Below, in pieces: positions 43,049 through 57,964 of a stretch of DNA of 64,000 bases. The stretch is from Cryomorphaceae bacterium (GTDB taxonomy: Bacteria; Bacteroidota; Bacteroidia; Flavobacteriales; ECT2AJA-044), in assembly GCA_017798125.1 (NCBI GenBank), contig CP059070.1, positions 310,001 to 374,000 on the forward strand, written 5' to 3'. Under the pieces are notes generated by a model. The model saw only the letters and a program-made list of their open reading frames with translations. It was not told the origin of the DNA and made no database searches. Positions within the stretch are counted from its first letter, which is position 1. Every line of letters starts with the position of its first letter. The translations under genes were made by a program, and so were the position numbers.

Positions 43049-44677
43049 TTATTGATGAATAAGCCGATATCCGTACTGTCTGTTCACCTTAATATAATAG
43101 GTGCCGGATGCAAGGTTCGATAACTCAATTGTCAATTCACTTTGACGCTTGGAAATAGGGAATTCGCGAATCAAACGACCTTGCCCATCGATCAATTCCA
43201 AATGCTGGACGCTCTTAGCGGGCCATCGGACCGTAACATTGGTCGAAGCGGGGTTCGGAAGAATCTCCACCTCGGGTTTACGGAACTCGCCTTGACCGCT
43301 GATTTGATTCCAAGCAAAATCTACGACTACGGGTAAATGGTCAGAGGCGTCATAGGCCAGCTGAGTGGAAACGACGAAGGACTTTTCGGCCCGTAGGGCA
43401 TAATCACTGTAAAACACATAATCCAGGCGACCCGGATAGTAGCTCGAGGTCTGACCGGGCCAGGTATAGCTCTGGCGCTGCGTGTTCTGAAGAGGAATGG
43501 GATCCGCGATCGGCGAACCGTCCCAATCGGGTAAGAAGTCCGTTCCAAAGGTGGCTTCATCCTGAATGTCACCGGTGAGGATGGTCTCCAATTGCTGCTT
43601 ATCGCCCACGAGGTTCATATCGCCCATCACCACGAAAGCCGTTCCAAAAGGAACATCAATTTGGCCTCCCGAAGTTTGAAGGTCGCGATAGAAGTTTACC
43701 AAGCCGTCCACTTGTTCTTGGCGTCGATCATCGGCGTTGCAGCACTTGAGATGAAGATTGGCAACGACCAAATCCGTAGCGAACGAAGAAGGTAGGTCGA
43801 TGGTACTTACGAGAATGCGATCTTCGGGATCGTGCTGATAAGACTGGGTAATGGGGAACTGGCTGGCCGTGACATTTCCGTCAAACAACTTGGCTGTGTA
43901 CCAACCCACCGGAAGGGGCATTAATGTGTCAAGAATCTGTTTGACCTGAGCGGCCGGAGTATCCCACAGTTCATTAAAGGTGATGATGTCCGGAGCTACT
44001 TGATTAATCACCTGGGCAATCTTTGGGCCCAAGAAGGGATCCACCAATCCGTCGTGTTCCACGTTGTAGGTCATCACGCGCAGATGCGTCGGATCTTTTT
44101 GAAGACCGATGGGTGTGTAGGGAAACTGCAAGCCACCGAGGACATGATCAATATGGCCGCTGTCCGGAAGTTTATCGTCTGCTCCATTCATCGATACCCA
44201 TGCAAAGCGAATGCTGTCGCCAAATTGCAATGGTCCGTTGCGATCAAAGGATACCTCAAATCGGTCCGAAGTCACCGTTGGGGCGCTGAACATGCCCACT
44301 TGATGGTGCTGTACGGTTTGTCCGTTCCACGTTCCTTCGCGATCGTAGAAACGCCACACGAGATCAGCTCCCATTCCTTCGTAGGCCTGACCGGTTTGGG
44401 CATTGGCATCCAAATCCAGATAGAGGGTAAGTCCGTATTCCGAGTTCAATTGCCAATCCTGAGCTCCGTGAATTTGAAAACTCACAAAGGAAGAGTCGCT
44501 GTAGACACGGGTCTGCAGTAAATCAAAATACGTGTGATCGCCGGCGGGATCATTGACGATCTGTAAGCCATCCCAATCATTGAAGTTGCCTTCTATGGTG
44601 ATTTGGGCGTGCACGGAGGAGCAGAATATGGCACAGAGGGCCAGGATGAAACTAAAGGAGAGAATGATTTTTCGCAT
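43049..44677 (-). CDS. Secreted endonuclease/exonuclease/phosphatase family protein with T9SS tail
   Basis: Exported protein of 542 residues; signal peptide ends at SVHAQ (residue 25). Residues 26-190 form a beta-sandwich of the kind seen in carbohydrate-binding or DOMON-like domains (EGNFNDWDGLQIVND). The EEP catalytic domain follows: RVMTYNVEHDG near residue 200, TFNELWD near 240 (metal Glu), VANLHLKC near 305 and VMGDMNLVGD near 350. SSYYPGRLDYVFYSD and DASDHLPVVVDF end the domain. The C-terminal 80 residues are a T9SS type A tail (VEILPNPASTNVTVRWP). It probably cleaves extracellular DNA, RNA or another phosphodiester. Confidence 0.87.
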   Translation of the reverse strand: MRKIILSFSFILALCAIFCSSVHAQITIEGNFNDWDGLQIVNDPAGDHTYFDLLQTRVYSDSSFVSFQIHGAQDWQLNSEYGLTLYLDLDANAQTGQAYEGMGADLVWRFYDREGTWNGQTVQHHQVGMFSAPTVTSDRFEVSFDRNGPLQFGDSIRFAWVSMNGADDKLPDSGHIDHVLGGLQFPYTPIGLQKDPTHLRVMTYNVEHDGLVDPFLGPKIAQVINQVAPDIITFNELWDTPAAQVKQILDTLMPLPVGWYTAKLFDGNVTASQFPITQSYQHDPEDRILVSTIDLPSSFATDLVVANLHLKCCNADDRRQEQVDGLVNFYRDLQTSGGQIDVPFGTAFVVMGDMNLVGDKQQLETILTGDIQDEATFGTDFLPDWDGSPIADPIPLQNTQRQSYTWPGQTSSYYPGRLDYVFYSDYALRAEKSFVVSTQLAYDASDHLPVVVDFAWNQISGQGEFRKPEVEILPNPASTNVTVRWPAKSVQHLELIDGQGRLIREFPISKRQSELTIELSNLASGTYYIKVNRQYGYRLIHQ

Positions 44678-44776: not shown

Positions 44777-46720
44777 TTGTACGATTACCTCTTTATCGGA
44801 TACGGAGCCAGCACTTGCCTGATGCTTCGCGCACTCCTCCGCAACGGAATGCTGACCGGGAAATCTGTGGCCATTATTGATCCGGATTACCAGCGAGGGA
44901 ACGACAAAACGTTTTGCTTTTGGTCTGAAGAACACGACCCCATTCTCGATCACAATCGTGACCTCATCGACAAGAGTTGGAGTAAAATTCGGGTCGATGA
45001 ATGGGAGGAAGAAGCCCTCTCCCCCCTCTCCTATCATCACATCGAAAGTAAGCGCCTCTACGACACCACACGGGCCATGCTGGAACGGTACGCCGTGGAT
45101 TGGTTCGAGGCGTCTGTGGATGATCTTCAACCCCTGAAAAGAGGGGTCCGGATTCAAGCCGGCACCATTGAGGTGAAAGCGAAAAAGATTTTCGATAGTA
45201 GACCTGCCGGCTTTGAACGGAGCGATCGCAAACCCTTTGTCTGGCAAAGTTTTTTAGGATACCGCGTTCGGGTGAACGATCCAGTTTTCGACGCCGAGGT
45301 CTACCACAAGATGGATTTTCAAATCCCTCAGGATGGGGCCACTCAATTCGTTTATGTCCTACCCTTCAGCGAAACGGAGGCTTTGGTAGAGTGGACGAGG
45401 TTTGGAGTGGACCGCGTTGATCATGCATCGGCCCGTGAGGGCCTCGACCAATACATTCAAAACCGCTTTGGCGCGTACGAAATTGTGAGAGAGGAAGTCG
45501 GGGCCATTCCGATGGCGACGGGTTCTGCCAAGGTGGAAGACCTACCTCGCGTGCAATCGATTGGGACGCGGGCCGGGAAGGTTAAGCCAAGTACGGGCTA
45601 TGCTTTTAAGCGCATGTACGATCACGCGGAAGAGCTGATCTCCGGTGCTACCCAGTCTAAATCCGCGGAGCGATTCGCTTGGTATGATCACCTTCTGCTC
45701 TGGATCCTTGTGTATCAGCCGCAGTGGGGTCGATCGATCTTTAAAACGCTCTTCAAGACGCAATCCGCGGTTTTTGTTCTGCGCTTCCTCGATGAGCAAA
45801 GTAAACTCTATCAAGAGATTCCGATGTTCTTGCGCCTGCCCTTGAGACCGTTCATTCATTCGGCCATGGTGTACATCGGTCAGTGGATGCGCGATCGGTG
45901 GGAAGTCTTTTTCACCCCAGTTTTGGCTGCGCTTTTGGTAGCGCTGGCCCAGTGGAATTCGGCCCTGGCGCTTCAAATTGGCATCCCGCTATTGGTCTTT
46001 GGATTCTTGTTGGTCGGCTTACCGCATGGAGCCCTCGACGCGTATTTGGAACGGGGGAAACGATCTCTTCCCACGTTCATCGGACGCTACCTGGCCCTGA
46101 TGGCCGCCATGCTCTTCATGTGGTGGTTGGCCCCACTCCTGGCCCTCATCCTCTTTGTCGCCTACAGTGCCCTTCATTTCGGACAAACCGACACCGAAGA
46201 ATGGGGACTCAAAAATGCCGGTCTCGCCTTCCCATGGGGCCTCGGCCTTCTCTCCATTCTCTTAATCAGCCATTGGTCCGAAACAGCCGAAATCCTGAGT
46301 GAATGGGGGATTTATTTAAGTGCCTCCACGGCACGATGGGAAACGCCCACGCTCCTATTCCTCTTCGCAGGCAGTACAGCCCTGGCCCTCTATCATCGAA
46401 AAGAAGCCTGGCTGGCCAGCTTGGCCACCCTCGCCTTGGGGACGCAGCTTCCGCTCTTGGTCGCCTTTGGACTTTACTTTGTAGGTCAACACAGCCTCAA
46501 TGGCTGGAAGCACCTACAACGCTCCCAAGGCTGGAGTCACACAGGCATGTACCTGCGTGGACTTCCCTACACCTTGGGAGCTGTTCTGTTCTTTGCGATG
46601 GTCTGGTGGATGGATGCCTCCTTACTCACGGCTCAATGGAGTTGGCTTTTTGTCGCCCTCTCCGTGGTGAGTTTTCCCCATGTGGTGGAGATGCACCGGT
46701 TCTACGAGCGGCGCACTTAG
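44777..46720 (+). CDS. Lycopene beta-cyclase fused to Blh-type beta-carotene 15,15'-dioxygenase
   Basis: One 647-residue protein with two enzymes. Residues 1-380 are a CrtY-type lycopene cyclase: dinucleotide-binding start YDYLFIGYGASTCLMLRALL, IDPDYQRGNDKTFCFW, YVLPFSETEALVEWTRFG near 195 and TGYAFKRM near 280. It makes beta-carotene from lycopene. Residues 390-647 are a polytopic Brp/Blh domain that cleaves beta-carotene to two retinals. Candidate iron ligands are His417 (GLPHGALD), His467 (ALHFGQTD) and His572 or His579 (GQHSLNGWKH). Direct channelling of product is inferred. An in-frame stop at 44768 leaves TTG 44777 as the first start. No rhodopsin gene is in the window. The stop overlaps the convergent ExbB-like gene by 4 bases. 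Confidence 0.9.
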   Translation: MYDYLFIGYGASTCLMLRALLRNGMLTGKSVAIIDPDYQRGNDKTFCFWSEEHDPILDHNRDLIDKSWSKIRVDEWEEEALSPLSYHHIESKRLYDTTRAMLERYAVDWFEASVDDLQPLKRGVRIQAGTIEVKAKKIFDSRPAGFERSDRKPFVWQSFLGYRVRVNDPVFDAEVYHKMDFQIPQDGATQFVYVLPFSETEALVEWTRFGVDRVDHASAREGLDQYIQNRFGAYEIVREEVGAIPMATGSAKVEDLPRVQSIGTRAGKVKPSTGYAFKRMYDHAEELISGATQSKSAERFAWYDHLLLWILVYQPQWGRSIFKTLFKTQSAVFVLRFLDEQSKLYQEIPMFLRLPLRPFIHSAMVYIGQWMRDRWEVFFTPVLAALLVALAQWNSALALQIGIPLLVFGFLLVGLPHGALDAYLERGKRSLPTFIGRYLALMAAMLFMWWLAPLLALILFVAYSALHFGQTDTEEWGLKNAGLAFPWGLGLLSILLISHWSETAEILSEWGIYLSASTARWETPTLLFLFAGSTALALYHRKEAWLASLATLALGTQLPLLVAFGLYFVGQHSLNGWKHLQRSQGWSHTGMYLRGLPYTLGAVLFFAMVWWMDASLLTAQWSWLFVALSVVSFPHVVEMHRFYERRT

Positions 46721-47094
46721 TCCTTTTGAAGCCACGCACTCAAGCCCAGCCAAAGTGCTAGTGCTATGACGTAGATGATCAGGCCGTACATGGTCGGGAT
46801 CATGCTCACTTTGAATCCACCGGCAAGTAGCGCGGGTGACACGTCCACGAGTTTTAGCTCAATGGCTTTGAAGGCCGAGAATAGTCCAATGAGTTGTCCC
46901 AAGAGTCCAACAATGAAGGCGAAAAGTCCAATGGATCGGGTATAAGTCAACTGACGACTAATGTTTTCGAGTCCGCTTACTTGACCTCGTGTGATGCGCA
47001 AGACTTGGACAACCGTGACGCTGATCATGGCGATGAAAATGAGGGTTAACAAGCCCATAAAAAGAGCTCCTCCTTGATAAAATAATTCCAACAT
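46717..47094 (-). CDS. MotA/TolQ/ExbB-like proton channel family protein
   Basis: Small membrane protein of 125 residues with three hydrophobic segments (about 8-32, 55-75 and 95-120). The segment IGLFAFIVGLLGQLIGLFSA and the following SPALLAGGFKVSMIPTMYGLII match the conserved core of the ExbB/TolQ/MotA family, whose members form proton-driven channels with ExbD/TolR/MotB partners. It is much shorter than full ExbB (about 240 residues) and lacks the large cytoplasmic loop. No ExbD-like gene is adjacent. Its function is therefore open. Confidence 0.7.
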   Translation of the reverse strand: MLELFYQGGALFMGLLTLIFIAMISVTVVQVLRITRGQVSGLENISRQLTYTRSIGLFAFIVGLLGQLIGLFSAFKAIELKLVDVSPALLAGGFKVSMIPTMYGLIIYVIALALWLGLSAWLQKD

Positions 47095-48267: not shown

Positions 48268-49218
48268 TCAACGACTGAAATTTCTCTTCCTTTTCAGGGT
48301 TTCTGACGGCAACTCGCCGATAAGCTGTTTATAATCCTTAGCGAATTGCCCCATATGCCAAAAACCTTGTTTGGCAGAGATATCGGCAATGGTTTGTGAA
48401 TGATGGGCTTGTTTAAGTAATTCATGAACGCGCCGAATACGGAAGTTAGTTACGTATTGCTTGGGGGTTAGACCATAGGTTTCTTTAAATAAATTTTGAA
48501 GTGTTCGTTCGCCCAACCCTATTGACTTGTGCAAATCGTGCATTCGAAAATCTCGAGCCGAATGCAATTTGAGCCATTGGGTAGCTTCTTCGATTATCAA
48601 TAGACCTTTTTCGTTTTGATCTCCTCTACCTTCTTGATGAGCAATAGCATTAAAAATAGCGTGAAGAATTTGTTCGGAGTTTTGAGCTACATTATGATTA
48701 GAAGCCAATGCTTCAAGGAAATACTTCGACAATGATCTCAAATAATCTGTTGTTCGCACATCCAAATCCCAAACATTCTCTCCCGCTACTGCTTGTTCTA
48801 AGCGTGTATTCTTTTTTGTTGCTAAAATCCGCTGAAAAACGTCTTGCCGGAATGAAAGTGTATACACATTAAAACTACTGTCTGAGATGCTGAACAGCTC
48901 TCCATTGGTTGGAAAAAGCGACAACGACCGACCGTGTAATGGCTTGTTCCTCCATGTATAGTGCACATTGTCAAAAGCTGGAATAACAAAGGTTCTGAAT
49001 CCCTCCGGTGTTAATCCCTGTTGCTCGAGTTTGCCGTAAAAATTTCCTTGACCAATCATTATCGTCTCCAAAAACCCTTGTGTAATCGAAAACTCAAACT
49101 TCCCTGCGCCCAAGGGTAAAAAGTCCAAATTCCAATCCACCACGTTTTCACGAAGCAAATCGAGATCATTAAATTTGGTCGAGACGAACATACTCTTGCG
49201 GATTTTTGATATCCTCAA
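48268..49218 (-). CDS. AraC family transcriptional regulator
   Basis: Regulator of 316 residues. The C-terminal 100 residues hold the two helix-turn-helix motifs of AraC/XylS proteins (DFRMHDLHKSIGLGERTLQN; TIADISAKQGFWHMGQFAKD) with the usual YGLTPKQYVTNFRIRRVHEL between them. The N-terminal 190 residues form a ligand domain with FYGKLEQQGLTPEGFRTFVI, resembling EutR-like AraC proteins. It is divergent from sulfatase 1, and a perfect 20-bp palindrome lies in the 53-base gap, so it probably controls the cluster. ATG 49218 is used; ATG 49191 is an alternative. The sequence is AT-richer than the genes to its left. Confidence 0.9.
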   Translation of the reverse strand: MRISKIRKSMFVSTKFNDLDLLRENVVDWNLDFLPLGAGKFEFSITQGFLETIMIGQGNFYGKLEQQGLTPEGFRTFVIPAFDNVHYTWRNKPLHGRSLSLFPTNGELFSISDSSFNVYTLSFRQDVFQRILATKKNTRLEQAVAGENVWDLDVRTTDYLRSLSKYFLEALASNHNVAQNSEQILHAIFNAIAHQEGRGDQNEKGLLIIEEATQWLKLHSARDFRMHDLHKSIGLGERTLQNLFKETYGLTPKQYVTNFRIRRVHELLKQAHHSQTIADISAKQGFWHMGQFAKDYKQLIGELPSETLKRKRNFSR

Positions 49219-49271: not shown

Positions 49272-50984
49272 ATGCGAGTTAAGTACACATTATATGCCCT
49301 GACATTGTTTATAGGCATTTCTACCGTTTCGTTTGCCCAGAATGAAATCATTCATGATGCTGAGTATTACATACTCGAAGCCAAACATGGTGAAAAATGG
49401 GCCGAACAAGATCAGGAGCTGAAAGATAAACTCGAAAAGCTCGAAAAGAAATTTGGCACTCCGCCCAACATCGTGCACATAATGTGGGACGATATGCCTG
49501 TTGGAGAGATTGGTATTCCGGCGCTGCAAAAAAACAGAGGGTTTGAAACCCCTGTAATGAACCAGGTTGCGGAAGATGGAATTCTTTTTACTCGAATGAT
49601 GACCGAACCTTCCTGTACACCGAGTAGAGCGGCGGCCATGACCGGACGTTATGCAGTGCGTAGCGGAATGTATAACGTAGCCTTTCCATACGAATATGGC
49701 GGCATTGGTGCAGATGAAGTAACTATGGCAGAAGTGCTTTCTGAAGCGGGGTACGCGACAGCATTTTACGGCAAATGGCATTTAGGAGATGTAGAATCAA
49801 GTTACTGCAACAACCAGGGATTTGATGAAGCCTTATGGACTCCGTACAATCAGGTCCCAAGTTTGTACGTACCTAGAGGACAACAAGCCGCGCTTTATCC
49901 TGGTAGCATGTATCCAAATATGTATCCAGAGGATAAATATGCATTGGATAATGACTGGATTCCGGATGGTTTTGTTTGGGCTCTAGAAGGTAAGAAGGGT
50001 GAAAAACCCAAAGAGTGGGGAGACACTTCAAGCGATGATGATTACTACAAAATCGATGATGAGTGTGTGAAGAGAGCGAAAGCCTTTATGGCCAAAAACA
50101 AAGACGAAAAGAAGCCCTTCTATATCGCCTACTGGCCGATGATGCAGTCATTCTTGGGGAATCAGCCAGGAACTCCGAATAATACTGTTGCTGGAGTAGC
50201 CGTCCAAGAAGGATATGTAAAGGTTGATGGTTATGTCGGACAAATCATGGATGAATTAGAGCGACTTGGTCTAGCCGAAAATACTTTGGTTATCCTCATG
50301 GCCGATAACGGTCCAATGACCCACAATGGTCCTCCAGGATTTATTGAGCACATTTACCGAGGAGGAAAAGGAGATTTTACTGAAGGAGCCGTGCGTGTCC
50401 CTGCCATTGCAAGTTGGAAAGGTGTTATCGATGGAGGTCAAATTGTGGGGGACATGATTCATATCACGGACCTCTTCACCACGTTTGCGAATTTAGCCGG
50501 AGCAACAGAGAATATTCCAACGGATAGAATTATTGACGGGTTAGATCAAACCGCTCTTCTTCTAAATGGCGACGGGTTTGGCAGACGTGACTACAATTTC
50601 ATTTACACTGGAAATATTTTGGCTGCTAGTGTTAAAGGGCGGTACAAAAGGCATTGGGTTGGCGAACTTCCTGGACTAAGTGGAGCCGCATTTTATGATC
50701 TATATAACGACCCGCGCGAGGTAAGTGGAAAAATGCTTCCTGGCTTTACAACCAAAGGGATGTTTATGGAAATGAAGATTCGCCATGAATTGTGGAAGTT
50801 AAAGTATCCGGATAACGAGTTGACTCGTGACTTTCCTTTCAAAGGCTTAGAGAACCCTTCGGAAAACGTTAAAGCTGCGTCTGAACCGCGGGTTGACCCA
50901 AAAGACTTGCCGTTTGATCCAAGAGAGTTCATCAACTATCTCAACGAGTGGGAGAATACAGAGACGCTCTGGTACGATGACTAG
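49272..50984 (+). CDS. Arylsulfatase (sulfatase 1, type A)
   Basis: Exported sulfatase of 570 residues; signal peptide ends near SFAQ (residue 23) and a short charged helix follows. The core has HIMWDDMPVGEIG (metal-binding Asp pair, near 76), the modification motif CTPSRAAAMTG with Cys115 as the formylglycine precursor, FYGKWHLGD near 163 and LMADNGPMTHNG near 340. GGKGDFTEGAVRVPA is near 365. It should hydrolyse a sulfate ester in the periplasm once Cys115 is oxidised by a maturase encoded elsewhere. A strong terminator follows at 50991-51019, so it is expressed apart from the downstream genes. Confidence 0.92.
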   Translation: MRVKYTLYALTLFIGISTVSFAQNEIIHDAEYYILEAKHGEKWAEQDQELKDKLEKLEKKFGTPPNIVHIMWDDMPVGEIGIPALQKNRGFETPVMNQVAEDGILFTRMMTEPSCTPSRAAAMTGRYAVRSGMYNVAFPYEYGGIGADEVTMAEVLSEAGYATAFYGKWHLGDVESSYCNNQGFDEALWTPYNQVPSLYVPRGQQAALYPGSMYPNMYPEDKYALDNDWIPDGFVWALEGKKGEKPKEWGDTSSDDDYYKIDDECVKRAKAFMAKNKDEKKPFYIAYWPMMQSFLGNQPGTPNNTVAGVAVQEGYVKVDGYVGQIMDELERLGLAENTLVILMADNGPMTHNGPPGFIEHIYRGGKGDFTEGAVRVPAIASWKGVIDGGQIVGDMIHITDLFTTFANLAGATENIPTDRIIDGLDQTALLLNGDGFGRRDYNFIYTGNILAASVKGRYKRHWVGELPGLSGAAFYDLYNDPREVSGKMLPGFTTKGMFMEMKIRHELWKLKYPDNELTRDFPFKGLENPSENVKAASEPRVDPKDLPFDPREFINYLNEWENTETLWYDD

Positions 50985-50990
50985 GATTTT

Positions 50991-51019
50991 AAAGGCCTGC
51001 TCTTAGCAGGCCTTTTTTT
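50991..51019 (+). terminator. Rho-independent terminator after sulfatase 1
   Basis: AAAGGCCTGC pairs perfectly with GCAGGCCTTT around TCTTA and is followed by a T-run. It starts seven bases after the sulfatase 1 stop and separates it from the five-gene block 51047-57964. Confidence 0.92.
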
Positions 51020-51046
51020 ATGTAGACAGAACCCCAAAAACGAGAT

Positions 51047-52234
51047 ATGGCATCAAGAAGAAACTTTATTAAAACAGCTGGTTTGGCTGGGATTGCTGCG
51101 GCAGCCGTGCCTTCAGCATGCGCGCGAGGAGTTGATCCAGAAAGCAAAACTTCAAACGCCGTTATTCCGTCCAGTGAAAAGAGTGATGCAACCATAAAAT
51201 ATGAAACGGGCCCCATAGGTGAAGGTGAGCCGCTACTGTTGGCAGGGTACGATTATAGTCGGGTGAAACCATTAGTCGAAGGTAAGGTGAAGATTGAAGG
51301 GTGTTCCTTTAATTATCAAGTGTCAGGTATTGGGGCCTTAAACAATCACGCATTCTTTGGTTCCCAAGAACGCGATGTCACCGAGCTGGGGCTTATACCA
51401 TACTTGCTGGCCTATGCGAATGATGATTTTCAGGACTACAAACTATTGCCATTACCCGTTCTTCGTATGTTCCGGCACCGCAGCGTTTGGGTTCGAACCG
51501 ATGGTCCGATCAAGCGACCTGAAGACTTACGTGGAAAGAAAGTAGCTACCGTTGGATACTCCAGTTCTGGGTTAACCCATATTCGAGGTTGGCTAGCTTC
51601 TGAGTATGGCGTGATGCCTGAAGAAATAGATTGGATTTCGACAAAAAAGGATTCAGCCGCGAACCTTACCAGTGGTGTTTCGAAATACGAAAAAATCATT
51701 CCTGAAAATATTGAAATGGAGTTTGCCCCAGATGGAGAAGACGAGTCTTCATTGCTTCTTTCAGGCCAAGTCGATGCAATTTTTCATCCGGCTGAACCGA
51801 AGTGTTTTCAGGAACGCAACCCAAATGTCCGACGGTTATTCACAGACTTCAGAACGGAGGAAATGGGGTATTTCACCAAGACAGGCATCTATCCAATTAT
51901 GCATACCGTTGCCATGAAGAGAAGTACCATCGAGGCCAATCCATGGATGCCAAAAGCCATTTTCGAGGCGTACTGCAAAGCAAAGGCCATGGATCTGAAA
52001 CACATGCAGCTCTTAGGTTGGGCTTATGATTCCCTGCCTTGGTACGGACAAGAATTTGATAATACACTCAATGAACTAGGACCAAACTTTTATGCCTATG
52101 GCATGGATAGAAGCCGGAAGGCGTATGAAGCGGCTTTCAGGTTTGTCTATGACCAAGGACTAGCGAAGCGCAAAATTTCGGTAGAAGATATTTTCGAAAC
52201 CTCAACATTGGATTTAAAAGATGCGATGTCTTGA
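51047..52234 (+). CDS. Tat-exported 4,5-dihydroxyphthalate decarboxylase-like / periplasmic-binding-fold protein
   Basis: A 395-residue protein that begins with a twin-arginine signal (ASRRNFIKTAGLAG) and a possible lipobox-like Ala-Cys (PSACAR). The body has the fold of type-2 periplasmic binding proteins (NMT1-like). Several segments follow the 4,5-dihydroxyphthalate decarboxylase pattern: RHRSVWVRTDGPIKRPEDLR, YPIMHTVAMKRSTIEANPW and the ending FRFVYDQGLAKRKISVEDIF. That family decarboxylates an aromatic diacid in the cytoplasm; an exported version is odd, so it may bind a ligand instead. It starts the block of three sulfatases and ends within four bases of the frame of the next one. Function is uncertain. 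Confidence 0.75.
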   Translation: MASRRNFIKTAGLAGIAAAAVPSACARGVDPESKTSNAVIPSSEKSDATIKYETGPIGEGEPLLLAGYDYSRVKPLVEGKVKIEGCSFNYQVSGIGALNNHAFFGSQERDVTELGLIPYLLAYANDDFQDYKLLPLPVLRMFRHRSVWVRTDGPIKRPEDLRGKKVATVGYSSSGLTHIRGWLASEYGVMPEEIDWISTKKDSAANLTSGVSKYEKIIPENIEMEFAPDGEDESSLLLSGQVDAIFHPAEPKCFQERNPNVRRLFTDFRTEEMGYFTKTGIYPIMHTVAMKRSTIEANPWMPKAIFEAYCKAKAMDLKHMQLLGWAYDSLPWYGQEFDNTLNELGPNFYAYGMDRSRKAYEAAFRFVYDQGLAKRKISVEDIFETSTLDLKDAMS

Positions 52235-52245
52235 AAAGGATTGAA

Positions 52246-54021
52246 ATGATTTTGAACAAAGGTCTTTACGCCTGCTGTAATTGGGTAAAAGGGAATCTGT
52301 TTAGGGCTTGTTTTTATATGCTTTCAGCTCTAATCATCTCGATTGGTTTCTCGGCATGCCAATCGAACAACGAAGAACCCAATGAGTTGAGGCCGAACAT
52401 TCTTTTGATTGTTGTGGACGACGCCGGATTTTCTGATTTCAGTAGCTATGGTGGAGAGATCAGTACTCCAAATATAGATCAGCTGGCAAGTAACGGGGTT
52501 CAATTCACTCGCTTCTACACGCAGCCCATGTGTGCGCCCACGCGTGCTTCAATTTTGTCTGGCGTTGATAACCATCAGAATGGCTTAGGAGCTATGCCAC
52601 CTATGCATACTCAGAATCAATACATGCAACCCGGATATGAAGGATACTTAAATGAAAAAGTGGTCACCCTTCCCGAAGTGCTGCGTGATAATGGCTATCA
52701 AACGTACATGAGTGGTAAGTGGCATTTGGGTTGTTTGGATTCGACTCAATATCCAAATGGAAGAGGATTTGAAAGAAGCTTTGCGCAAATGGCCGGAAGT
52801 GCGGGTCATTTTCAAGACGGTTTCGCTACAGGGCCGATTGACGTTCCAGTCACTTTTTATGTGGAAGACAACCGGCGAATTGAGGAGTTGTCGGAGAATT
52901 TCTACACGACTAAAGACTACACGGACTACATGATTCAATACATCAAAGAATCAGATGAGGAAAAACCAATCTTCGGGTACTTAGCTTATACGGCTCCTCA
53001 TGACCCGCTACATGTCACCGATGAATATATTGACAAATACAAAGGCGCCTACGACGAAGGTTTTGATGCCATACGTAGAGCGCGACTTGAGCGGATGAAA
53101 AATATGGGTTTAGTTGATGAATCCGTTCCGTACAATCCGGGTACGGGTAATTTCACTCAATGGGACTCTTTAACGGCAGATGAAAAAGTTATTCAGGCAA
53201 GAAGAATGGAAGTTTACGCGGCAATGATCGCTTGTGTAGATGACCAGATTGGCCGGTTGGTTGAAACTTTAGAAGCAGAGAAAAGGCTTGAAAACACGGT
53301 GTTTATTGTTATGTCGGACAACGGCCCAAATCCATATGATCCAGAGTTTTATTACTTGGGCAGTGTTGACGAGTTCAATAAACAAGGGTTTGATAATAGT
53401 TTAGAAAACATGGGAAGAGATAACTCTTTTATATCGCTTGGCGGCGCTTGGGCTGAGGTAACCGCTACTCCATTTAGCTACTACAAAACCACTACCGGGG
53501 AAGGCGGCATTCGGACACCTTTGATCATTTCAGGCGTTGGAATTGAGGCGAATGGTGTAAAAGATATAACGGTTCATGCTGCTGACATTTATCCGACAGT
53601 TCTAGAGCTTGCCGATGCCAAACGTCCTGAAACTTATCGAGGAAATCCAATGAATCCATTATTTGGTCGTTCAGCCAAGCCCCTTCTTGAAGGTGAAGAG
53701 GATCACGTTAGGGATACAGAGATTGAGCCATTGTGTTTTGAGATTAGCGGGTACAAGACAGTTATTCAGGGAGATTGGAAATTGATGCAAGGCAAGGCTT
53801 TTAAGAATGGAGGTAAATGGGTGCTAATCAACCTCGAGGAAGACCCGACCGAAAAAACGGATCTTTCCGAAGAGTATCCAGATAAGGTTAAAGAGATGGC
53901 GGAGCACTGGGAAGAATATAGCGTGAAACACGGGTATATTCCCCCCGAAGGAAACATGTATGTCATTGAAATTGGTGCAGAGACCTTTTACAACTATGGA
54001 CGGGATTACCGTGTAAAATAA
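52246..54021 (+). CDS. Arylsulfatase lipoprotein (sulfatase 2, Pseudomonas AtsA-like)
   Basis: A sulfatase of 591 residues with a long leader ending in a lipobox (GFSAC, near residue 38). It follows the Pseudomonas arylsulfatase (AtsA) pattern throughout: VVDDAGFSDFSSYGGEISTP, the CAPTRASILSG motif with Cys96 to be formylglycine, MSGKWHLG and APHDPLHV. A RRMEVYAAMIACVDDQIGR helix, VMSDNGPNPYDP and TTTGEGGIRTPLIISG follow. AtsA enzymes act on aryl and alkyl sulfates. The start is ATG 52246, because AAAAGGA lies five bases before it; a TTG at 52231 overlapping the previous stop is the alternative. It overlaps sulfatase 3 by one base. Confidence 0.92.
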   Translation: MILNKGLYACCNWVKGNLFRACFYMLSALIISIGFSACQSNNEEPNELRPNILLIVVDDAGFSDFSSYGGEISTPNIDQLASNGVQFTRFYTQPMCAPTRASILSGVDNHQNGLGAMPPMHTQNQYMQPGYEGYLNEKVVTLPEVLRDNGYQTYMSGKWHLGCLDSTQYPNGRGFERSFAQMAGSAGHFQDGFATGPIDVPVTFYVEDNRRIEELSENFYTTKDYTDYMIQYIKESDEEKPIFGYLAYTAPHDPLHVTDEYIDKYKGAYDEGFDAIRRARLERMKNMGLVDESVPYNPGTGNFTQWDSLTADEKVIQARRMEVYAAMIACVDDQIGRLVETLEAEKRLENTVFIVMSDNGPNPYDPEFYYLGSVDEFNKQGFDNSLENMGRDNSFISLGGAWAEVTATPFSYYKTTTGEGGIRTPLIISGVGIEANGVKDITVHAADIYPTVLELADAKRPETYRGNPMNPLFGRSAKPLLEGEEDHVRDTEIEPLCFEISGYKTVIQGDWKLMQGKAFKNGGKWVLINLEEDPTEKTDLSEEYPDKVKEMAEHWEEYSVKHGYIPPEGNMYVIEIGAETFYNYGRDYRVK

Positions 54022-55448
54022 TGATCATGAAAAGAATAGTCCTTTCGCTGGTTCCTGTTTTCTTGCTCCTTGCCCTCAACACTAAAGGCCAGCAAAAGCC
54101 AAATGTGGTTTTGATCATGATGGACAACTTGGGATGGGGAGAGCTCGGGTGTTATGGAGGCGGTGAACTGCGCGGTGCTCCAACCCCTAATATTGATCAG
54201 CTTGCCTCGGAGGGTATGCGTTTTTTGAATTTCAATGTAGAGGCGCAATGCACTCCAAGTAGGGCGGCTACTTTAACCGGAAGGTATGCGGTACGAACGG
54301 GTAATGCCAGTATTCCGATTGATTCACCTGTCTACGGACTAACACAATGGGAATATACTCTTGCTGAAATGTTCTCCGACGTAGGGTATTCAACCGCGAT
54401 GTTCGGCAAATGGCATTTAGGTCAAACGGAGGGCCGGTTCCCCACGGATCAGGGTTTTGATGAATGGTATGGGATTCCAAATTCTTCAGACGAGGCCTTT
54501 TGGCCTGATGACACCCGATACAAACCAAGTGCTCACCCATTTGCTCAAAGCACCTACATTATGGAATCTGTCAAAGGCGAGCAGCCAAAAGAATTGACGA
54601 TTTATAATTTAAGTCAACGGGCTATAATCGACGAGGAAATAACGTCCAGATCAGTTGATTTTATCAAGCGACAAGCTAAAAACACAGGTCCTTTCTTTCT
54701 TTTCATTCCCTATACACAAACCCATATGCCAACCACGCCTCATCCGCAATACAAGGGCAAAACAGGTAATGGAGACTTTGCTGATGTTCTGGTTCAAATG
54801 GATGATTACGTCGGCCGAATAATTGAAGCACTTGACGAACAAGGGCTCAACGAGAATACTATTCTCATATTCACCTCTGATAATGGGCCTGATCCACAAA
54901 CACCCTACCATGGGTTTAGTGGCCCGTGGAGAGGCTCCTACTTTACCGGGTTTGAAGGCTCATTGCGAGTCCCATGTATTATGAGATGGCCCAATAAAAT
55001 CCCCGGTGGAACGGTTACCAACGAGATTGTCCACGAAATGGATTTATTTCCAACCCTTGCAAGAATTGTAGGGGGAAAGATTCCCGATGACCGAATAATT
55101 GACGGAGTAGACCAACTCGACTTTCTATATGGGCGACAAGATTCGTCAAATCGTGAGAGTGTTATCATATACGTGGGTAATGAGATTTTTGGAGTAAAAT
55201 GGCGAAACTTCAAACTGATGACAAAAGAAATTGACAAAGCTTGGGGAAATGCAACGAGATCGTACAGTGTTCCCTTGTTTTACGATTTATATACCGATCC
55301 TAAAGAGGAGAATCCCTTGGACCCAAAGTGGATCGAAACGACATGGATGCGCTGGCCAGCTGGACAAGCCTTGACTGACCATCTTAAATCTTTAGAAGAG
55401 GAGCCTGTAATTCGGCCGGGAGCATTAGACCCATATCTTCCCGAGTAG
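54021..55448 (+). CDS. Arylsulfatase (sulfatase 3, type A)
   Basis: Exported sulfatase of 475 residues; signal peptide ends near NTKGQ (residue 24). It resembles sulfatase 1 more than its direct neighbours: CTPSRAATLTGRYAVRTGN (Cys77) against the nearly identical motif in sulfatase 1. The first metal motif reads MMDNLGWGELG, with Asn as second residue where Asp is usual, as in some arylsulfatases. FGKWHLG, HMPTTPHP, FTSDNGPDPQTP and FTGFEGSLRVPCIM complete the site. ATG 54021 overlaps the sulfatase 2 stop; ATG 54027 is equally possible. Confidence 0.92.
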   Translation: MIMKRIVLSLVPVFLLLALNTKGQQKPNVVLIMMDNLGWGELGCYGGGELRGAPTPNIDQLASEGMRFLNFNVEAQCTPSRAATLTGRYAVRTGNASIPIDSPVYGLTQWEYTLAEMFSDVGYSTAMFGKWHLGQTEGRFPTDQGFDEWYGIPNSSDEAFWPDDTRYKPSAHPFAQSTYIMESVKGEQPKELTIYNLSQRAIIDEEITSRSVDFIKRQAKNTGPFFLFIPYTQTHMPTTPHPQYKGKTGNGDFADVLVQMDDYVGRIIEALDEQGLNENTILIFTSDNGPDPQTPYHGFSGPWRGSYFTGFEGSLRVPCIMRWPNKIPGGTVTNEIVHEMDLFPTLARIVGGKIPDDRIIDGVDQLDFLYGRQDSSNRESVIIYVGNEIFGVKWRNFKLMTKEIDKAWGNATRSYSVPLFYDLYTDPKEENPLDPKWIETTWMRWPAGQALTDHLKSLEEEPVIRPGALDPYLPE

Positions 55449-55481
55449 GCTGTTTATAAGAACATTATATCACGATTAAAC

Positions 55482-56228
55482 ATGATTGTAGGATTGTTAA
55501 CTCTGTTTTCCATTTTGTTTTTTGGAGGATCACAAGAGTATTTTCTAGTAGAGAAACTGGAAAAAGGAGTAAAGGAATATGTCATTGAAAAAGATCGCAA
55601 GAAAGAAATCTTGTCTGACCTCGACATAACGGTCAAAACCATAAAGGTCTTTAATAAAAACCGCGAGAAGACATTGAGGGAGTATCACGATTTGAATGCC
55701 TCGTATTCGAGTACGAAAGCGGATTTCGACACTTTTTTGCAATCATTAAAAGAAGAGCGTGTGGCTTTTCAAAAAGACATTTTGGAACAACGAGTAATGG
55801 TCGTAGCCAAGATTACACCTGAAGAATGGTCCAATATCATTGAATACTCGAGTGAAAAGACAGAAAAACGTCTTGAAAAAGAGAATAAGAAAAAAGAGAA
55901 GGATGCTTTCTCAAAGATTAAGCAGAAAATAGATTCAGAGATTAGTGATGATGAGAAGCGAAACTCGGCACTTCAGGCCCTTGAACAGATTCAACTAAAA
56001 TTCAATGAGCTCGGAGACACCTATGCATCTTTAAACGCTCTCGAAAACAATCTGGTTAAAGATCAAAACACCACTCTTGAAGAAGGTGAAAAGTTAGGTG
56101 CACAGCTTAATGAACTCCGCACAGAAATGCACTTTGCAGTTGTTTCTTTTCATTTTGCTATCAAGGATCTATCAGATGAGTCGACCTTCGAAAGAATCAT
56201 GAAAACCGTAAATAAGGTCATCTTATAA
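55482..56228 (+). CDS. Unknown membrane-anchored coiled-coil protein
   Basis: A 248-residue protein not recognised. A hydrophobic N-terminus (IVGLLTLFSILFFGG) serves as anchor or signal, and the rest is almost wholly charged helix: YVIEKDRKKEILSDLD, RLEKENKKKEKDAFSKIKQK, then heptad-like LEQIQLKFNELGDTYASLNALE. It has no cysteine and no enzyme motif. It lies between sulfatases 3 and 4, with gaps of 33 and 14 bases, so it is probably co-expressed. It might hold or space envelope proteins. That is inference. Confidence 0.65.
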   Translation: MIVGLLTLFSILFFGGSQEYFLVEKLEKGVKEYVIEKDRKKEILSDLDITVKTIKVFNKNREKTLREYHDLNASYSSTKADFDTFLQSLKEERVAFQKDILEQRVMVVAKITPEEWSNIIEYSSEKTEKRLEKENKKKEKDAFSKIKQKIDSEISDDEKRNSALQALEQIQLKFNELGDTYASLNALENNLVKDQNTTLEEGEKLGAQLNELRTEMHFAVVSFHFAIKDLSDESTFERIMKTVNKVIL

Positions 56229-56242
56229 TTACCGGTGCGTAT

Positions 56243-57964
56243 ATGATATATTGTTCTAAAGAGTCTTTCTCGTCGCCATTTTCCTTGCTTACCATCCTAT
56301 CATGGACTGTACTTGCTGGCTGTTCACCCCAAAACCCTACGGCGCATAAAACAACAAGTAAGCCGCCGAACATCATCCTGATTGTCGCTGATGATGCAGG
56401 GTTTTCTGACTTTTCATGTTACGGTGGGGAAATCTCCACCCCTAATATTGATCGCCTGGCTAGTGCCGGCATGCAGCTAACCGATTTTCATGTTACGCCG
56501 AATTGTGCTCCTACGCGTGCAGCATTGCTCACAGGGAAAGACAATCATTTAGCCGGGATGGGTACGATGAGTGAGCTCATTACCGAAAATCAAATCGGTC
56601 AACCCGGTTATGAAGGTTTTTTGCGTCAAGATTTGAAGACACTGCCCGAAGCCCTCAAAGAAAACGGATACCGCACATACATGGTAGGTAAATGGCATTT
56701 GGGAGCCAAGCAGACCTCAATGCTTCCGTTTAACCGAGGATTTGACCGCACCTTTTCTATGCTCGCAGGAGGAGCAAGTCATTGGAGCGACAACAAACCA
56801 CTCATACCCGGGAAGTCCAGTCTGTATACACACAATGGGAAGATCATTGAAGAACTACCGATGGATTTCTATTCAACGGAGTCCTACACAGATAGCATTA
56901 TTTCATTTATAGACGAAGATATTCAGAAAGACAGACCATTTTTTGCATACGTAGCATACACTGCCCCACACAATCCGCTACACGCACCTAAAGCTTATAT
57001 CGAAAAGTATAGAGGGAAATATGACTCGGGGTGGTCGGTTCATGCCGAGAATCGGCTGAGTCAGATGAAGGATCTCGGAATAATCCATGGCGACCAAGTT
57101 GCTTACGAATTTCCCGATTGGATTAGCCCTTGGAACGAGCTCAGTGATGAGCAAAAGGCTTCTCGAGCAAGAGACATGGAGGTATATGCAGCGATGATTG
57201 ACTACATGGATATGAGCATAGGACGATTATTGGAATATTTAAAATCAATAGAGGCATACGATAATTCCATAGTCATTTTCATGTCGGACAACGGAGCAAG
57301 CAAAACCACAATAAATGATTACGCAAGTTTAGGTAGAGAAATTGAAGAGCATTTGGCATCTTTTGATAATTCCTTGCCAAACAAAGGGCTGCCAAATTCC
57401 TATCCGGACATCGGTCCGGGTTGGGCTTGGTCATGCAACACGCCATTTCGACATACCAAAGGATATCCTACAGAAGGTGGAATGCGGGTACCGTTGGTCA
57501 TCAAGCTACCTGCCGAGACCCGATTGAAGCCACAAAGAATCTCAAGCTTCGCGTATGTCACCGATATTATGCCCACATTACTTGATTTGGTTGGCGCCGA
57601 ATCTATAGAAGATGTTGAACCAGACGATGGCATGAGCAACTTAGGACAATCATTACTCCCTGTTTTGACCGGGAATTCTGAGGCCGGTACGGAGCGCCAA
57701 ATGGGATTCGAGCTTTACGGAATGCGAACCTTTAGATCTGGCATGTGGAAAATAAACATGTTGCCCACGCCATACGGAACTGGGGAATGGACCTTACACA
57801 ATTTGCAGAGCGACCTTTCCGAACAAATTGATCTTTCCGAGAAAGAACCTGAAAAACTAAAAAGGATGATCAAGAAATACGAGGCCTATGCAGAAAAAGT
57901 AGGTGTGGTTGAGCCAGATCGTCCCGTTGGATATTCAAAACCTCCTAAAGAGGGTGCCTATTAG
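56243..57964 (+). CDS. Arylsulfatase lipoprotein (sulfatase 4, Pseudomonas AtsA-like)
   Basis: A sulfatase of 573 residues with a lipobox (VLAGC, near residue 28). It is a close relative of sulfatase 2: VADDAGFSDFSCYGGEISTP, CAPTRAALLTGKDNH with Cys88 as formylglycine precursor, MVGKWHLGAK and YTAPHNPLHAP. A RDMEVYAAMIDYMDMSIGR helix, FMSDNGASKTT and TEGGMRVPLVIK follow. The C-terminal FELYGMRTFRSGMWKINMLP segment is typical of the AtsA group, which cleaves aryl and alkyl sulfates. Last gene of the island; no terminator is evident after it. Confidence 0.92.
   Translation: MIYCSKESFSSPFSLLTILSWTVLAGCSPQNPTAHKTTSKPPNIILIVADDAGFSDFSCYGGEISTPNIDRLASAGMQLTDFHVTPNCAPTRAALLTGKDNHLAGMGTMSELITENQIGQPGYEGFLRQDLKTLPEALKENGYRTYMVGKWHLGAKQTSMLPFNRGFDRTFSMLAGGASHWSDNKPLIPGKSSLYTHNGKIIEELPMDFYSTESYTDSIISFIDEDIQKDRPFFAYVAYTAPHNPLHAPKAYIEKYRGKYDSGWSVHAENRLSQMKDLGIIHGDQVAYEFPDWISPWNELSDEQKASRARDMEVYAAMIDYMDMSIGRLLEYLKSIEAYDNSIVIFMSDNGASKTTINDYASLGREIEEHLASFDNSLPNKGLPNSYPDIGPGWAWSCNTPFRHTKGYPTEGGMRVPLVIKLPAETRLKPQRISSFAYVTDIMPTLLDLVGAESIEDVEPDDGMSNLGQSLLPVLTGNSEAGTERQMGFELYGMRTFRSGMWKINMLPTPYGTGEWTLHNLQSDLSEQIDLSEKEPEKLKRMIKKYEAYAEKVGVVEPDRPVGYSKPPKEGAY

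Follow-up and report, generated by a model that had tools for sequence, protein, structure and literature searches.

A lycopene cyclase-Blh fusion as a probable lycopene-to-retinal enzyme in aquatic Bacteroidota

The gene at positions 44777-46720 (plus strand) of the window, the 64,000-nucleotide stretch of a Cryomorphaceae genome analysed here, joins a lycopene cyclase (CrtY) to a retinal-forming dioxygenase (Blh). Its product is very probably a bifunctional enzyme that converts lycopene to retinal for the proteorhodopsin of the cell; we infer the activity of each half from its domain and conserved residues. The N-terminal flavoprotein half would cyclise lycopene at both ends to form beta-carotene, which the C-terminal Brp/Blh membrane half would cleave at 15,15' to yield two retinals. 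The fusion occurs in many aquatic relatives, mostly beside a rhodopsin gene. It is a stable and widespread variant that is apparently undescribed: no earlier published CrtY-Blh fusion was found in the literature searched, with subscription journals and preprints outside the search.

Many aquatic Bacteroidota carry a rhodopsin proton pump, and their supply of retinal is usually inferred from a separate blh gene. In a large clade the retinal step is a cyclase-dioxygenase fusion, often accompanied by another cyclase that serves the remaining pigments. Looking for blh by protein length may mislead, as may crediting bulk beta-carotene synthesis to a fused crtY.

Domains and conserved residues of the fusion

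The reading frame (647 aa, stop codon included in the coordinates) contains no internal stop. Its TTG start is backed by several homologues that start at the same place, ahead of the GxGA dinucleotide motif. The CrtY half, a flavoprotein lycopene cyclase, spans 44777-45886 (plus strand, about aa 1-370) and leads almost directly into the first membrane helix of the Blh half at 45899-46717 (plus strand, about aa 375-647). The first-pass annotation had read a lycopene cyclase and a retinal-forming Blh in one 647-residue chain. Pfam upheld this reading, as both domains scored above the curated cut-offs: Lycopene_cycl (PF05834) at aa 3-310 (E 2e-41, 142.8 bits against 23.4) and BCD (PF15461) at aa 409-637 (E 3e-30, 106.2 bits against 28). 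Among fused proteins, the family profiles of the two halves abut or lie 1-31 residues apart. The NCBIfam Blh model TIGR03753 also scored above its cut-off (111.2 bits against 95.25). The cyclase models TIGR01790 (95.3 bits against 209.5) and TIGR01789 (64 against 215.2) matched the CrtY half below theirs. None of 61 panel genomes, described below, reached the TIGR01790 cut-off, and this model therefore seems blind to the cyclases of these lineages. The CrtYcd-type cyclase domain, PF18916, had no Pfam match in the fusion protein; the CrtYcd of the genome sits elsewhere.

Most motif columns examined in the CrtY half were nearly invariant, in fused sequences with as little as 33-40% identity to the fusion of the window. 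The GxG nucleotide motif is present (G8, G10). The acidic residue E205, in ALVEWTRF (codon 45389-45391, plus strand), was kept in 102/102 CrtY sequences, 87 of them fused and 15 standalone, and is presumably the catalytic acid. In the Blh half, three histidines are probable metal ligands: H417 (46025-46027), H467 (46175-46177) and H572 (46490-46492; all plus strand). Each was invariant in the 137 aligned Bacteroidota Blh sequences, as was D421. We equate these histidines with His21, His78 and His188 of the Blh of uncultured marine bacterium 66A03 by order and spacing, not by alignment to the 66A03 letters. That protein belongs to the same Brp/Blh family and is standalone; less than 5% of its activity was left after change of His21, His78, His188 or His192, according to the accessible part of PMC9227343. 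Its fourth histidine is placed differently from that of the fusion, on the same unaligned comparison. The place of His192 (i+4 of H572) is G576 in the fusion and glycine in 82/87 fused proteins, and a histidine stood there in 0/137 aligned Bacteroidota Blh. A fourth histidine, H635 (46679-46681, plus strand), was invariant in the 135 aligned sequences with a letter at this position. We propose H635 as a candidate fourth ligand of Bacteroidota Blh, in place of His192.

For the whole chain, AlphaFold gave a model (pLDDT 91.7, pTM 0.80) with a flavoprotein fold whose best PDB match was the geranylgeranyl-reductase-like 3oz2 (E 3.6e-13). Modelled alone (pLDDT 92.3), the Blh half is predicted to be an all-helical membrane protein, and neither sequence nor fold searches of the PDB returned a solved relative of it (best fold E 0.5). 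A sequence search of the PDB with the CrtY half gave no match, and a profile of the fusion gave weak matches with thioredoxin reductases on top. Both domains of the fusion are complete and retain their conserved residues.

An Exo_endo_phos gene with a type IX sorting tail (43049-44677, minus strand) precedes the fusion gene, and an unrelated MotA/ExbB-like ORF (46717-47094, minus strand) converges on it with a 4 bp overlap. The GC3 of the fusion gene (0.63) falls at the upper end of the range of its neighbours (0.40-0.64) and gives no clear sign of recent transfer. Further along the window, an AraC-type regulator (48268-49218) precedes a group of four PF00884 sulfatases (49272-57964) that also encloses an NMT1/THI5-like protein; this looks like a region for sulfated-glycan utilisation.

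Distribution and history of the fusion

The first-pass annotation had proposed looking for the same fusion in related genomes. We searched 395 genomes of this order for Blh and obtained a match in 96, of which 24 carried it in a fusion-length frame of 587-700 aa; one more fusion (G351) was cut by a contig end. All fusions in the order sample belong to family f8 (genera g45, g55 and g61), save that of the window's own genome (family f1). In a profile search of genome contigs, the best 80 of 305 relatives all covered nearly the whole fusion query. The titles of these 80 records name Schleiferiaceae, Cryomorphaceae, Crocinitomicaceae and Chitinophagaceae as well as Cytophagaceae, Saprospiraceae and Sphingobacteriia, a few titles looking mislabelled, and single-cell genomes are among them. 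The patterns for this search of named records were built from fused proteins, so that the result is silent on the rarity of unfused pairs. These results reject a fusion unique to this genome: the earlier domain identities and the fusion itself stood, and its standing as a curiosity of a single gene fell away, the arrangement being common in Bacteroidota.

The CrtY tree (79 sequences) separated 65 fused sequences from 14 standalone ones, the latter from Flavobacteriales only (SH-aLRT 99). A single origin of the fusion is likely on these trees, because the fused CrtY halves form one clade. In the Blh tree (109 sequences), the standalone sequences of G089 and G343 fell in with 70 fused ones (support 98), and two changes of state were needed in this quick tree. 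Constraining the fused rows to group together improved the Blh tree by 4.8 log units, and one origin was not rejected (p-AU 0.615); multiple origins were set aside. Both trees left out three partial fused frames (L050, L061, L127) and near-copies above 85% identity. Distances in the CrtY and Blh halves of 87 fused proteins were correlated (0.92), in keeping with halves that have remained joined. The fusion has a long and stable history.

Overlapping crtY-blh pairs were found in six panel genomes (G371, G177, G168, G319, G242 and G089), with overlaps of 4-28 bp. These pairs share the gene order of the fusion and differ from it in encoding two chains, with a CrtY outside the fused clade. One of them, in G089, is the source of a standalone Blh that groups with fused Blh.

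Other carotenoid fusions are known. According to the accessible part of PMC10016063, Thecamonas trahens has a four-domain CrtI-CrtB-CrtYc/d-Blh protein, which likewise holds a lycopene cyclase and a C-terminal Blh in one chain. Unlike the fusion described here it is eukaryotic, its cyclase is of the unrelated CrtYc/d type and it includes two extra enzymes; its Blh falls among other lineages in that paper. Successive carotenoid enzymes are also joined in the natural CrtBY, CrtIBY and CrtIB fusions, but none of those in the accessible part of PMC10284914 has a retinal-forming step.

Rhodopsin and a second cyclase

In the DNA fetched, 65 of 102 loci had a rhodopsin gene no more than 1 kb from the fusion. 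Nearby rhodopsins were upstream and divergent (29), upstream on the same strand (29) or downstream on the same strand (8), with one of the 65 loci holding two. After removal of duplicates, the count was 54/90 distinct proteins. Restricted to distinct loci with enough DNA on both sides, it was 54/78; the other 24/78 had no nearby rhodopsin, as in the window. Somewhere in the genome, a rhodopsin was found in 24/25 fused genomes of the panel. At locus L038 (5036-7027, genome G222) the fused crtY-blh is flanked by a rhodopsin gene on each side. Next to a full-length blh frame, G217:C7:313253-313525 and L059 show what is left of a rhodopsin gene, broken by an internal stop, possibly an ongoing loss of phototrophy.

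The only other sampled member of the genus and family, G014 (a draft genome, 97% complete), keeps CrtYcd. Rhodopsin and Blh were not found in it, and its search for CrtY gave nothing beyond short N-terminal matches. Its pigment cluster has other DNA at the expected place of the rhodopsin, from the upstream gene to CrtD. Genes to the left of the fusion in the window occur in the same order in G014 up to 44677, the end of the Exo_endo_phos gene that faces the fusion, with no match beyond. Protein and DNA matches to a fusion or rhodopsin remnant in G014 were at chance level; aligning the rhodopsin gap locally gave a score of 229, compared with a shuffled maximum of 255.5. Rhodopsin and fusion are thus absent together in this one draft genome while the other pigment cluster stays. 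Proximity in relatives and this joint absence both connect the fusion with rhodopsin.

The window's own genome (2.84 Mb, one contig; window at C1:310001-374000) holds one Blh, one rhodopsin, one phytoene synthase and one CrtYcd. Its sole true CrtY is the fused one. Two more PF05834 matches span just 35-39 positions, at the N-terminal end of the profile, and were taken as the nucleotide-binding part. The first-pass annotation had described the fusion gene as standing apart from other carotenoid genes and from any rhodopsin gene, and had suggested looking for such genes elsewhere. Both points were confirmed: rhodopsin, crtB and crtI-type genes are present, the nearest other carotenoid gene found being phytoene synthase at C1:1651970, and the rhodopsin at C1:1676475 lies 1.3 Mb from the fusion.

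The rhodopsin cluster runs in the order rhodopsin, CrtD, CruF-like, CrtZ-like and CrtYcd. CrtD matched NF042421 (702.8 bits against a cut-off of 500). The CruF-like protein matched PF04240, with NCBIfam CruF models below cut-off. The 158-aa ORF has no family match and looks like CrtZ by its histidine motifs. The CrtYcd-type cyclase (C1:1679865-1680554), unrelated to CrtY, ends the cluster. The genome therefore has two unrelated lycopene cyclases. The presence of CrtD and CruF suggests that its other pigment is probably monocyclic, saproxanthin- or myxol-like; the CrtYcd of Algoriphagus, a single chain, acts as a monocyclase according to the accessible part of Klassen 2010 (PMC2889829).

In a second cluster, a CarH-like regulator (CarH model below cut-off) precedes crtI, phytoene synthase and IPP isomerase. 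This MerR/B12-domain regulator and a putative ECF sigma factor, recognised by eye, occupy L079 3281-5432 (C1:1648280-1650431); their position before crtI and phytoene synthase suggests light-controlled carotenoids. Several photolyase/cryptochrome-like ORFs, also recognised by eye, lie between the carotenoid clusters (C1:1655947-1657254, 1659254-1660645 and 1667781-1670809). The closest solved relatives of the rhodopsin are proteorhodopsins. Its RYIDWTLTVPLMCVE helix marks it, in our reading, as a green-type DTE proton pump, and we assign its residue 141, a glycine, to the position of the antenna glycine of xanthorhodopsin. The antenna glycine criterion is described for xanthorhodopsin in the accessible part of PMC12308411.

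We compared cyclase content with CrtY-Blh linkage in a panel of 61 genomes: 25 fused genomes, G014, and 35 chosen from the 71 remaining genomes of the order sample with Blh (those of f8 included). Where CrtYcd and CrtY were both present, CrtY was tied to Blh in 26/26 genomes (22 fused, 4 overlapping pairs). Where CrtY was the only cyclase, it was tied to Blh in 5/14 (3 fused, 2 overlapping) and unlinked in 9/14; the three fused genomes without CrtYcd are 74-91% complete. CrtYcd without CrtY was seen in 20/61 genomes, 19 of them with Blh, and G035 had neither cyclase. Many genomes get by with CrtYcd and a standalone Blh, which weighs against the proposed role of the fusion. For the association of linkage with a second cyclase, Fisher p was 7e-6 by genome and 0.0047 by genus (linked/unlinked 6/0 versus 1/7), these values being uncorrected for descent and indicative only, because panel genomes are related and the 35 of 71 unfused Blh genomes were a chosen subset. 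Among 50 further fused loci from the best 80 of 305 records, with order-sample records left out and completeness not given, CrtYcd was found in 36. This is weaker than 22/25, and the tendency of a second cyclase to go with CrtY-Blh linkage is therefore suggestive and not a rule. Linkage is also not obligatory, because flavobacteria with separate CrtY and Blh carry rhodopsin as well (six of seven f3 panel genomes).

Proposed function and competing explanations

Published work on Nonlabens spongiae supplies a reason for linking CrtY to Blh beside a second cyclase. According to the accessible part of PMC11855829, its CrtY alone in E. coli gave beta-carotene, and CrtY with CruF gave mainly 1'-hydroxy-gamma-carotene; a free cyclase thus loses product to CruF. 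The identity of this flavobacterial CrtY is 47% with CrtYm of P99-3 and 26% with Pantoea CrtY, and unlike the fusion it is standalone and lies within a myxol cluster (same source); it would belong to the same Pfam family as the CrtY half.

We propose that the fusion would reserve one cyclase for retinal where a CrtYcd/CruF/CrtD route makes the bulk carotenoid, so that beta-carotene would meet Blh before other enzymes could take it. The first-pass reading of the two domains and their fusion holds; with a CrtYcd beside the rhodopsin, the fusion is better taken for a retinal-only branch than for the general source of beta-carotene. We infer an advantage in the joining itself: it probably keeps the pump pigment apart from the other carotenoids of the cell. 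Direct hand-over of beta-carotene between the halves is plausible. If beta-carotene is passed internally, the fusion would be a naturally occurring single-chain enzyme from lycopene to retinal, of use in producing retinal, and would clearly exemplify how evolution has separated two uses of one intermediate. A fuller scheme is offered tentatively and is open to considerable doubt. It places a partition at the lycopene branch point, with lycopene in, retinal out and no free pool of beta-carotene. An overlapping crtY-blh pair would have given rise to the fusion a single time in Bacteroidota, and the fusion would have been favoured beside a CrtYcd/CruF/CrtD/CrtZ route to a monocyclic xanthophyll, perhaps the accessory pigment of the rhodopsin, with neither cyclase competing for the product of the other.

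Quite possibly the fusion is a mere convenience, fixing co-expression and the membrane placement of CrtY at a one-to-one ratio with neither hand-over nor partition. The overlapping pairs of six panel genomes would already give co-expression, and fusion would be a small further step. Plain co-expression, however, does not predict that linkage tracks the second cyclase (26/26 versus 5/14), and the fused form has been retained across a very diverse clade.

It is unlikely that the Blh half acts on a different bond or on a different substrate, such as gamma-carotene or hydroxylated carotenoids, to give another apocarotenal or retinal plus apo-lycopenal. The absence of histidine at the His192 place and the probable monocyclic carotenoids of the genome would fit such a reading; however, the same substitution is seen in standalone Blh of genomes with rhodopsins close by, and fused genes adjoin rhodopsins, which need retinal. 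A CrtY half reduced to a dead tether or membrane regulator, with beta-carotene coming from CrtYcd, is more improbable still. The cell does have CrtYcd, and standalone Blh occurs in genomes with CrtYcd only, but the invariance of E205 and near-invariance of most motif columns at 33-40% identity argue against it, as do the three fused genomes in which no CrtYcd was found. An assembly artefact (removal of a stop codon around residue 385, as the first-pass annotation had considered) or chance read-through of two genes can be dismissed, given the same layout in 24/96 Blh genomes of the order and in the best 80 of 305 named records, and a junction that is colinear in 19/19 aligned fusions (that of the window and 18 others).

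Four genomes of genus g55 carry the fusion, and others of this genus have a standalone, very divergent Blh beside rhodopsin, without CrtY. The genus thus forms a natural pair for comparing the fused and standalone-Blh solutions.
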